Source: an uncultured Granulosicoccaceae bacterium (GTDB lineage: Bacteria; Pseudomonadota; Gammaproteobacteria; Granulosicoccales; Granulosicoccaceae). Taken from it: a DNA stretch of 64,000 nt. The notes under the pieces are model-generated. The model was not told the origin of the DNA and made no database searches. It saw nothing but the letters and a program-made list of their open reading frames with translations. The position numbers and the translations under genes are program-made. How positions within the stretch are numbered: position 1 is the stretch's first letter; the number at the start of each line of letters is the position of its first letter. The stretch lies in NCBI GenBank assembly GCA_937922015.1, contig CAKZVB010000048.1, positions 1 through 64,000 of the forward strand. Direction: 5' to 3'. Shown piece by piece: positions 31,097 to 35,060 of the stretch.

Positions 31097-31783
31097 ATGA
31101 TTCATTTTAACCATGTCAGCAAAAATTTCTCCGATATCCCTCTGTTTAAAGACATCTCTCTCTTTTTACCCAAAGCGTCCTATACTTTTATCACCGGGGC
31201 GGCAAAAACCGGCAAGACCACATTATTTAAAATGATCATGGCTTACGAAAAGCCAGACAGTGGCTTGCTGACCGTCGACGATATGGACATCAGTTCTCTG
31301 CCAGATGAAAGAGTGCCGTTTTTACGACGCCAAATCGGATTGATAGAAACAACCCCGCTGATGCTTGAGAATCAAACCGTCAGGGATAACATCGCAGTAC
31401 CGATGCAGGTGGCCGGGTTTGATCGAAAGGCATTACAAGAGCGTGTTTCGCTGTCGCTGGCACAATCGGGTTTAGAAATAATCGCGGATGTGCCGGTGCA
31501 AAGACTGGATCAGGATCAACGGCGGTTAGTCGCGTGTGCACGTGCAACGGTGCACCGGCCCGGAATCCTGCTTGTCGATGAACCAGAAACCCAATTGCGA
31601 GACAGCACACAGCTGATGCAACATGAATTACTGCAAACAATGCATAACGATGGCGCAACAGTTGTAGTCAACTTAAAACAGACAGAGTCAAACGCAGCCA
31701 GTTCGACCACCGGCAGCAACGTGTTGATTATCGACGACGGTAAAATTTATTCGCATGAACCTACAGAACACTCACCTGACTGA
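31097..31783 (+). CDS. ftsE: FtsE homologue with degenerate ATPase motifs
   Basis: By position between ftsY and ftsX and by its FtsE-like start (MIHFNHVSKNF), this is FtsE, the ABC ATPase partner of FtsX in cell division. Walker A GAAKTGKT (34-41) and Walker B ILLVDEP are intact. The other motifs are not: the Q-loop IGxxFQD reads IGLIETT, the signature LSGGEQQ aligns with LDQDQRR, the D-loop GNLD reads TQLRD, and the H-loop ATHD reads NLKQ. The frame is uninterrupted, so this is not a recent pseudogene. ATP hydrolysis as in canonical FtsE is doubtful. It overlaps ftsX by 29 bases. Confidence 0.85.
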   Translation: MIHFNHVSKNFSDIPLFKDISLFLPKASYTFITGAAKTGKTTLFKMIMAYEKPDSGLLTVDDMDISSLPDERVPFLRRQIGLIETTPLMLENQTVRDNIAVPMQVAGFDRKALQERVSLSLAQSGLEIIADVPVQRLDQDQRRLVACARATVHRPGILLVDEPETQLRDSTQLMQHELLQTMHNDGATVVVNLKQTESNAASSTTGSNVLIIDDGKIYSHEPTEHSPD

Positions 31784-32666
31784 AGATCGCCCACCGCGTT
31801 TGGTAAGCAGCGACCTGTTTAGCTCCCGATACTTCCATGCACTGTCTGATTTTTATCGCTCTTTGAAACACGGTGACGGCAGGCAACTGCTTTTAACCTT
31901 TGCGCTGACCTTGCTTCTGGTGATGCCGGCCGGCGCCCTGTTTGTCGCCCAGGGATTACACAATGCCAGTGAAAACCTCAAACAGGCAAGACGTTTAACC
32001 GTTTTCCTGACACCGAATAAACCCACCTCCACCGCTACCGAACTGGCCGCAACGCTGACCCAAAATCAGCGTATTGACCGGGTCACTCTAATTGATATCA
32101 GTACCGTCAGCACTAACGCACCCGCCACTGACCCCGCCAACCCGACTTCCACGGTGCTGCTGGAAGTTATTCCAGCCCCTCACCTCGACAACGAATCAGT
32201 GAGCAGTCTGGCAGATCATCTGCAAGGCCTGACCGGAATTGATTTTGTTGACCTGGATACCTCGCGGCTGGAAAAAAACGAATCAGCATTCAAGCTGTTG
32301 ACCTCTCTGGCCCGCTTCTCAAATATAGCCGCGCTGCTGATAGCAGCAATTTTTACGTTACTGGTGAGTCGACGCGACATACAAAATAACAAGAAATCGA
32401 TTAAGCTCATGCGCCAAATTGGCGCTACTACTGCTGACCTCCGGCGGCCTTACCTGTATCGCAGTCTGCTGCTGGGAATTTTGGCTGGTTGTTTAAGCGT
32501 GCTGGCTGCAATTGCGCTTTTGGGGGCTGTTTTGCACTTTGCCGATGCCGATACCTTCAGATCTCTGATTCCCACCGCACCTTCAGTATTCCAGCTCATT
32601 ATGTTCTTCGCCATCGTAATCGCCGCCGCGTCAATTACCACCGCTCGCTCTTTTACAAATAATTAA
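31755..32666 (+). CDS. ftsX: Cell division protein FtsX
   Basis: Membrane partner of FtsE that in E. coli activates murein amidases via EnvC. The 303-aa protein has one membrane segment near residues 45-68, an extracytoplasmic domain of about 120 residues with two short beta motifs (RLTVFLTP and VLLEVIPAP), and three C-terminal segments from about residue 190. The loop IKLMRQIGATTADLRRPYL is the FtsX-family cytoplasmic coupling region. It overlaps ftsE and is followed by a 212-bp leader region before rpoH. Confidence 0.92.
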   Translation: MNLQNTHLTEDRPPRLVSSDLFSSRYFHALSDFYRSLKHGDGRQLLLTFALTLLLVMPAGALFVAQGLHNASENLKQARRLTVFLTPNKPTSTATELAATLTQNQRIDRVTLIDISTVSTNAPATDPANPTSTVLLEVIPAPHLDNESVSSLADHLQGLTGIDFVDLDTSRLEKNESAFKLLTSLARFSNIAALLIAAIFTLLVSRRDIQNNKKSIKLMRQIGATTADLRRPYLYRSLLLGILAGCLSVLAAIALLGAVLHFADADTFRSLIPTAPSVFQLIMFFAIVIAAASITTARSFTNN

Positions 32667-32696: not shown

Positions 32697-32705
32697 TGCT
32701 ATAAT
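32697..32705 (+). promoter_or_regulatory. Extended -10 promoter candidate upstream of rpoH
   Basis: TGCTATAAT is a complete extended -10 (TGn followed by the consensus TATAAT), about 30 bp after the ftsX stop. No good -35 is visible at the right spacing, as is allowed for extended -10 promoters. It would give a leader of about 170 nt containing the CIRCE element. Confidence 0.5.
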
Positions 32706-32814
32706 GTAGTTATCTAGCCTGCGATAGACGATTCCACAAAGAATCTGACACGCCAATCCCGGTAAGTCCTCAGTTTTTCCAAATACCCGCCGAATAATTG
32801 AACTTATTGATTTG

Positions 32815-32841
32815 TTAGCACTCCTACCTTGTGAGTGCTAA
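32815..32841 (+). promoter_or_regulatory. Perfect CIRCE operator (HrcA site) upstream of rpoH
   Basis: TTAGCACTC-N9-GAGTGCTAA matches the CIRCE consensus at all 18 specified bases with the standard 9-bp spacer. It ends 37 nt before the rpoH ATG. A -10-like TAAAAT (32839-32844) overlaps its right arm, the classical arrangement in which HrcA blocks initiation. CIRCE is normally found upstream of groESL or hrcA-dnaK. Confidence 0.95.
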
Positions 32842-32878
32842 AATAGACCGTATAACGGTTACAGGAGAATAAACAAAG

Positions 32879-33751
32879 ATGGCCAACACAATGGTAAACA
32901 AGTCAACTATGACCTTACCCGCCGTCAGCGATGATCTGAACAGCTATCTGTCAAAAATCGCCGCATTTCCGGTGCTAAGCGCCGAGAAAGAAAAGGAATT
33001 GGCGGTTAGCTACCGCGACAACGAAGACCTTGATGCCGCCGGTCAAATGGTGATGTCACAGCTGCGTTTCGTCGTGCACCTGGCGCGTAGCTACAGCGGC
33101 TACGGACTGCCACTGGCTGATTTGGTTCAGGAAGGTAATATCGGCCTGATGAAAGCGGTTAAGCGCTTCGACCCGGACGTCGGTGTGCGCCTGATCTCTT
33201 TTGCAGTGCACTGGATTCGTGCAGAAATTCACGAATTCGTCATTCGCAACTGGCGCATCGTCAAAGTCGCCACCACCAAAGCTCAGCGGAAACTCTTCTT
33301 TAAGCTGCGAAGCTCGAAAAAAGGCCTGGGCTGGTTTTCACAGGACGAAGCACAGGCGGTCGCCCATGACCTTGGCGTGACTGAAGCGCAGGTGTATGAA
33401 ATGGAGTCTCGCTTAACCGGTGGAGACACACCATTTGATGCCACCAGTGCCGACGACGGTTCAGAGAAACGGGCACTACGCCCTGCAGAGTACATGTTTG
33501 ACGACAACTCCGATCCGGCGGTTGCTGCGGAAAACAGCAACTTCAGCGACTCGCAGTCAGTGATTCTTGCGGCCGGTATGGAAAGCCTTGATGACCGCAG
33601 TCGGGATATCCTGCAACGCCGGTGGTTACAGGATGACGGAAAGTCTACGTTGCAGGATCTCGCAGACGAGTACTCCGTATCGGCAGAGCGTATTCGCCAA
33701 ATTGAGAAAGCAGCGATGAAGAAATTAAAATCGCACATGCTTGAACACTAA
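32879..33751 (+). CDS. rpoH: RNA polymerase sigma-32 factor
   Basis: Heat-shock sigma factor. Region 2 (DLVQEGNIGLMKAVKRFDP and the -10 recognition helix near residues 103-120) and region 4 (IRQIEKAAMKKLKSH) are intact. The RpoH box reads QRKLFFKLR, with Lys for the usual Asn. It is 290 aa. AGGAG lies 11 nt before the ATG. It ends the ftsYEX-rpoH cluster and has its own terminator. The CIRCE operator in the leader implies HrcA repression in addition to any usual sigma-70 or translational control. Confidence 0.97.
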   Translation: MANTMVNKSTMTLPAVSDDLNSYLSKIAAFPVLSAEKEKELAVSYRDNEDLDAAGQMVMSQLRFVVHLARSYSGYGLPLADLVQEGNIGLMKAVKRFDPDVGVRLISFAVHWIRAEIHEFVIRNWRIVKVATTKAQRKLFFKLRSSKKGLGWFSQDEAQAVAHDLGVTEAQVYEMESRLTGGDTPFDATSADDGSEKRALRPAEYMFDDNSDPAVAAENSNFSDSQSVILAAGMESLDDRSRDILQRRWLQDDGKSTLQDLADEYSVSAERIRQIEKAAMKKLKSHMLEH

Positions 33752-33904: not shown

Positions 33905-34861
33905 TTACGAGCCAATCTGAATCAACTTCTCAGAGCCATCCGGCATTTGTTCCCACTCAGTCGGCTGAACAGCTTCCTGCTTAACGGCGGGCGGCGATCC
34001 TTCGCTAAGCAACGCCTGGTCAATCCCCACGATCACACCATCACCAGTTGAGGTGAGAACGACGCTCGCTTTTTCTTCCAGCGCTTCAATATCCATCGCT
34101 GGTTTATCCATCACTGGTTGGTTTCGAGCAGCTTTGTCGATGAAGAGATCTTCAGCCGGATCTTTGCTGTCTTTGTCTTCGCTGCTGAATAGTGATCCAA
34201 ACGAAGATTTTTCCTGTTTAACCTGGTTAACGGCATCGGCAGCATCAATAACTCCACGGATATCCTGCAGGCTCACACGCTGAGGATCCATCAGAATATC
34301 GCGAGCAAGCTCCTGATATTCAGCAATAGACACACCCTTCTCAACGGCAGGTGTTTCCTTGACCTGATAGAGTCTGGTTTCTTTGTCTCGCTCAGGGATT
34401 GTGATATCCACAAGTTGCACCAACGCCCAACGAGGAGCAAATGCATAGGCGCCAGCATAGGCAATCTTCGCGTCAGATTCACTGGCACCTTCAGCACGCA
34501 GGCCGTTATAGAAAGTCTGCTGGACATCCTGCCACGACCTTTCACGCTTATCACTACCGACACTATGCAACGCTACCGTTTTTAAATAATCGCTAACGGG
34601 TAACAGACCGGAGTATTGCCACACAAACCTGGGCACCGTTTGTTTAACAACACTGCCCTTCGGTGCTACCAGTGTGCCGTTATTTTCACCAACGCTGAAA
34701 AATAAGTCACACCGCAACGTAGTTACTTTGTCACCAACAAACAAACGACTTTCTGCAACCCGGGTGGAATATGTACCGAACGAGTGTTGAGCAGCATAGG
34801 ACGAACCAACATTCGCTGACACTGCTATTGCCAGCGCCGTAAAGCGAATAACTCTTTTCAT
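33905..34861 (-). CDS. Unknown exported protein
   Basis: A protein of 318 aa with a clear signal peptide (MKRVIRFTALAIAV, cleavage after about SSYAA). The ATG at 34861 follows GGGGAAG and is preferred over the frame start at 34888. The first 190 mature residues include one cysteine and WQDVQQTFYNGLRAEGASES. A middle segment is charged and probably disordered (KQEKSSFGSLFSSEDKDSKD), and the C-terminus ends WEQMPDGSEKLIQIGS. No family is recognised and there is no anchor. It is probably periplasmic. It lies between rpoH (convergent) and the phosphatase gene. Confidence 0.6.
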   Translation of the reverse strand: MKRVIRFTALAIAVSANVGSSYAAQHSFGTYSTRVAESRLFVGDKVTTLRCDLFFSVGENNGTLVAPKGSVVKQTVPRFVWQYSGLLPVSDYLKTVALHSVGSDKRERSWQDVQQTFYNGLRAEGASESDAKIAYAGAYAFAPRWALVQLVDITIPERDKETRLYQVKETPAVEKGVSIAEYQELARDILMDPQRVSLQDIRGVIDAADAVNQVKQEKSSFGSLFSSEDKDSKDPAEDLFIDKAARNQPVMDKPAMDIEALEEKASVVLTSTGDGVIVGIDQALLSEGSPPAVKQEAVQPTEWEQMPDGSEKLIQIGS

Positions 34862-35060
34862 TTCTTCCCCAACAATTAAAGATAGCAATTGAAGCCCTGT
34901 TATAGACTTCAGACTAATAATGCGGGCAAGTTATCAAAACTGATGAGGGATAACTGTGAAGGAGTCGACGGTAAAAAAATATCGCTAACTATTTAGTGCA
35001 ATAAACCGGGATGCTATTGACACCCCCGCGGACATTGCCTGGCAGGAAAAACAAACGCTA

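Follow-up and report, generated by a model that had tools for sequence, protein, structure and literature searches.

The rpoH gene of an uncultured Granulosicoccaceae bacterium, which encodes sigma-32, is likely to be controlled by a composite stress-input switch, in which a sigma-E-type and a sigma-70-type promoter are interlocked with a CIRCE operator and gated by the repressor HrcA. Accounts of heat-shock control in bacteria usually describe it as positive, by sigma-32, or as negative, by HrcA and CIRCE; in enteric bacteria, sigma-E feeds rpoH. Here the three systems appear to converge within 46 bases, in an arrangement that is widespread in Gammaproteobacteria. The envelope response would take part as a third stress system, since the operator is interlocked with a promoter of the sigma-E type.

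The locus lies in a 64-kb window (the whole stretch of DNA that was analysed) of a Granulosicoccaceae MAG of 5.03 Mb, which is 80.6% complete; the named loci whose RpoH proteins are most similar are assigned to the same family. The features upstream of rpoH are collected in Table 1. The open reading frame starts with an ATG at 32879, and its product is RpoH according to TIGR02392 (387.9 bits, cut-off 323.1) and NF005143 (412 bits). The gene order ftsE-ftsX-rpoH is identical to that of E. coli; the FtsE and FtsX encoded just upstream of rpoH (31097-32666), which score well under the NCBIfam equivalog cut-offs (149 vs 264.85 and 88 vs 255 bits), are a divergent pair in a conserved gene order. 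The 327-aa open reading frame that adjoins rpoH on the complementary strand (33905-34888) has no NCBIfam or Pfam match.

Table 1. Predicted elements of the rpoH locus, with their positions in the window.
Feature	Position	Strand	Remarks
Possible upstream sigma-70 extended -10, TGCTATAAT	32697..32705	+	not conserved beyond nearest relative
Sigma-E (RpoE)-type -35, TGAACTT (consensus GGAACTT)	32799..32805	+	fixed offset, 9 nt before CIRCE
CIRCE operator, perfect consensus, predicted HrcA site	32815..32841	+	0/18 mismatches; conserved in relatives
Sigma-E-type -10, TCCTA	32822..32826	+	16 nt after -35; geometry as E. coli rpoH P3
Extended -10, sigma-70 type, TGCTAAAAT	32836..32844	+	CIRCE right arm + AAT
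Shine-Dalgarno-like AGGAG before rpoH	32864..32868	+	sequence; GGAG-like element in relatives
rpoH (sigma-32)	32879..33751	+	TIGR02392 and NF005143 above cut-off

The first-pass annotation had claimed that a perfect CIRCE lies 37 nt before the sigma-32 start and overlaps a -10-like TAAAAT, and both statements are correct. When the consensus TTAGCACTC-N9-GAGTGCTAA is searched for with few mismatches allowed, the plus strand reads TTAGCACTC-CTACCTTGT-GAGTGCTAA (left arm, spacer, right arm) at 32815-32841, identical to the consensus at all 18 positions, and TAAAAT occupies 32839-32844. The operator is the sole CIRCE match with at most 3 mismatches in the window, where dinucleotide shuffles give a mean of 0.04 such matches, and it is also the sole match across the whole 5.03 Mb assembly. 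We nevertheless rejected the idea that rpoH is the only target of HrcA in a genome with a single CIRCE: groESL is missing from the MAG, and the second site of its relatives precedes groES. Neither groES nor groEL was found in the 80.6%-complete assembly, most likely as a result of this incompleteness, since relatives from the same genus carry groES with a CIRCE of its own; the second CIRCE is thus probably lacking because it lies on missing contigs.

The proposal of the first-pass annotation depended on the presence of hrcA, and the same genome does contain this gene (TIGR00331, 305.6 bits, cut-off 197.2; also PF01628). Its product is related to the HrcA of solved structure (entry 1stz), and grpE-like and dnaK-like open reading frames come after it, in the order hrcA-grpE-dnaK. 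No CIRCE precedes hrcA in this genome, so that autoregulation of hrcA was discarded here. The genome also encodes RpoE and its anti-sigma factor RseA, in an rpoE-rseA-rseB operon on contig C228, as well as further ECF sigma factors.

The description of the promoter as a -10-like TAAAAT was incomplete: the overlap is real, and the operator is also interlocked with a sigma-E-type promoter, so that it appears, from the motifs, to lie across two predicted -10 elements before rpoH. If a sigma-E promoter is taken as a GGAACTT-like box followed, after about 16 nt, by TCnnA, the stretch TGAACTT-N16-TCCTA is one, with a single mismatch in the -35 box. Its -10 box straddles the junction of left arm and spacer, with two bases at the end of the CIRCE left arm and three at the start of the spacer. 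The RpoE motifs are given as GGAACTT and TCAAA (PMC4890791), and both boxes of the window depart from consensus. Even so, 32799-32826 is the only site of the form GGAACTT (at most 1 mismatch)-N15-17-TCNNA on both strands of the 64 kb.

The GGAACTT box was found by stacking sites on their CIRCE. Of 91 distinct, unselected CIRCE sites that precede rpoH, 55 carry it 9 nt ahead of the operator if up to 1 mismatch is tolerated, and 68 if up to 2 are, while any other offset accounts for at most 7 of the 91 sites. On the contrary, it is found before none of 20 groES CIRCE sites and none of 12 hrcA CIRCE sites. The second promoter behaves in the same manner: the third base after CIRCE, which together with the right arm gives TGCTAnnnT, is a T in 90 of the 91 rpoH sites and in 0 of the 20 groES sites.

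Conservation was assessed on relatives whose rpoH upstream regions were picked by kinship, independently of CIRCE. Within the genus and the family, all genomes with a readable region upstream of rpoH have the operator there (at most 1 mismatch), one region being interrupted by a contig end. The first-pass annotation had asked for this conservation to be verified, and it extends over the genus, the family and a large part of the class. When the intergenic regions of 12 members of the genus are aligned, conservation is confined to the segment from the -35 GAACT to TAAAATA, plus the ribosome-binding region. One relative (locus L209, genome G037) has, besides its main rpoH with CIRCE, a second, paralogous rpoH-like gene, which scores 296 bits, under the cut-off, and has no CIRCE.

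With one genome sampled for each gammaproteobacterial family, CIRCE (at most 2 mismatches) precedes rpoH in 27 of 44 families, and hrcA is found in 24 of these 27 versus 4 of the 17 others (Fisher p = 1.7e-5). A sigma-E promoter is seen in 20 of the 27 CIRCE-bearing regions, where shuffled sequences would give 8.5%; it is interlocked with CIRCE in 15 families, and in the other five it is shifted upstream off the operator with a box spacing that is still 15-16 nt, which suggests that the sigma-E boxes are a promoter in their own right. The fused pattern GGAACTT-N9-CIRCE (at most 3 mismatches) was then searched for in 369 genomes of the class and is present in 163, whereas the pattern written backwards gave 0. 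Of the carriers, 156 have hrcA and the remaining seven are assemblies that are 62 to 88% complete; in genomes at least 90% complete, hrcA accompanies the fused pattern in 135 cases out of 135 (p = 3e-24, a value that overstates independence because the species are related, as do all p-values on genome counts, so that one-per-family counts are safer). CIRCE precedes rpoH in 28 of the first 30 loci fetched, and all 20 further matches with a GAAC core precede rpoH. The matches from outside the class, in a draw across the phylum, all lack the GGAAC core; they have 3 mismatches, and we treated them as CIRCE-only sites. The claim that HrcA controls rpoH through CIRCE thus finds good comparative support in the conservation of the element and in its co-occurrence with hrcA, the binding of HrcA being predicted.

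It could be argued that HrcA represses rpoH through the sigma-70 extended -10 only, the GGAACTT-like element being incidental or serving another of the ECF sigma factors that the genome encodes. The T at position +3, which completes TAnnnT, is indeed present in 26 of 27 families and varies less than the -35 GGAACTT, and seven of the 27 CIRCE-bearing families have no recognisable sigma-E promoter. We consider this explanation unlikely, however, since GGAACTT stands at a single fixed offset and exclusively at the CIRCE sites of rpoH, since it belongs to the only sigma-E-type promoter of the window, which agrees with E. coli rpoH P3 in its sequence, its spacing and its place among the genes, and since the spacing of the boxes is retained when they are displaced from the operator.

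It is less probable still that CIRCE acts as an mRNA hairpin, affecting the translation or the stability of the rpoH message, instead of being a DNA operator. A perfect inverted repeat could fold if its transcription began further upstream, for instance at TGCTATAAT (32697-32705), but we rejected this candidate promoter, whose TATAAT is common to the nearest relative only, and the predicted starts of both conserved promoters fall within or after CIRCE, which would give transcripts that lack the full hairpin; an RNA thermometer was discarded as the main idea for the same reason. In addition, the spacer is variable, the arms show exact agreement with the HrcA consensus instead of covariation, and the element tracks hrcA. 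That CIRCE persists as a relic, the control of rpoH by HrcA having been lost, seems to us equally remote. Three of the CIRCE-bearing families have no detected hrcA, but two of the three genomes are incomplete assemblies, as are nearly all carriers without hrcA; the co-occurrence with hrcA is strong, and the arms have been kept exactly in a genus in which the remainder of the intergenic sequence has diverged.

The reading that we prefer, a switch in which HrcA gates two promoters, can be put in terms of the HrcA model described in other bacteria, where GroEL keeps HrcA active and unfolded protein titrates GroEL (PMC6032397). In the unstressed cell, free GroEL would maintain active HrcA on CIRCE, where the repressor would cover the -10 regions and the start sites of both promoters, and rpoH would be little transcribed. 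Titration of GroEL by unfolded cytoplasmic protein, or inactivation of HrcA by heat, would clear the operator, and rpoH would then be transcribed in proportion to the activity of sigma-E, which reports envelope stress, and of the housekeeping polymerase. HrcA would thereby gate the cascade from sigma-E to sigma-32, and GroEL would feed back on the transcription of rpoH. We infer the binding of HrcA, the use of sigma-E, the repression and the control by GroEL; the feedback is proposed by analogy with HrcA in other bacteria, and the GroEL step draws on the relatives, groEL being missing from the assembly. The prediction is a coincidence logic, in which the envelope input would be gated by the load on the cytoplasmic chaperonin.

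A CIRCE upstream of rpoH was reported in 2004 for Geobacter sulfurreducens (Rodionov et al., PMC545781, Table 8), which answers the question of the first-pass annotation whether this arrangement had been described in any lineage. As in the window, a perfect CIRCE lies near rpoH (position -51) and hrcA is in the genome; unlike the window, this is a single deltaproteobacterial species, and the part of that paper available to us describes no sigma-E promoter there, whereas in the element studied here, which is widespread among Gammaproteobacteria, operator and sigma-E promoter interlock. The part that appears to be new is the interlock of sigma-E promoter and CIRCE; CIRCE before rpoH is known in itself, and HrcA/CIRCE is a known category. 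HrcA has reportedly been tested at the rpoH gene of Geobacter, by Ueki and Lovley in 2007. No previous description of the interlock came to light, in a search that did not cover that study or Permina and Gelfand (2003). It may be that one of these two works lists rpoH as a target of HrcA in more species.

The operator is identical to that which controls groESL and hrcA-grpE-dnaK, the second CIRCE of genomes of the same genus being the one before groES. The groES CIRCE differs from that of rpoH in that it adjoins the 3' end of a TTGAAT-N17-TATTAT-like promoter (loci L032-L060 and L228-L230), with neither GGAACTT nor the T at +3. Unlike the chaperone operons under HrcA/CIRCE control, the target here is the gene of an activator.

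The ftsX-rpoH gap of E. coli contains GAACTT-N16-TCTGA, a stretch which we take to be rpoH P3, and no CIRCE. RpoE originally came to light through the transcription of rpoH from P3 (PMC8103513), and HrcA/CIRCE is absent from E. coli according to PMC545781. The same gap, similar boxes (TGAACTT-N16-TCCTA in the window), the same N16 spacing and the P3 role of the E. coli stretch lead us to regard the promoter of the window as the positional homologue of P3, within which lies an operator that P3 lacks. It is conceivable, though we hold it somewhat doubtful, that the HrcA gate is ancestral in Gammaproteobacteria, such that rpoH would answer envelope stress only when the cytoplasmic chaperonin is saturated too, and that in lineages such as E. 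coli the gate disappeared along with hrcA, leaving P3 ungated. This would offer a possible explanation for the origin of the ungated P3 of E. coli.

Last, we note some particular cases. A tandem pair of CIRCE elements precedes rpoH at two loci, L089 (G057) and L257 (G300). Locus L084, from a genome without detected hrcA (G049), has GGAACTT-N16-TCTCA before rpoH, and ACAGTACTC, which is possibly a decayed operator, at the place expected for the left arm of CIRCE. The record L115, under the title Streptomyces cinereus JCM 3040, contains an rpoH of the gammaproteobacterial type, with 57% identity to that of the window; this record is probably mislabelled or contaminated.
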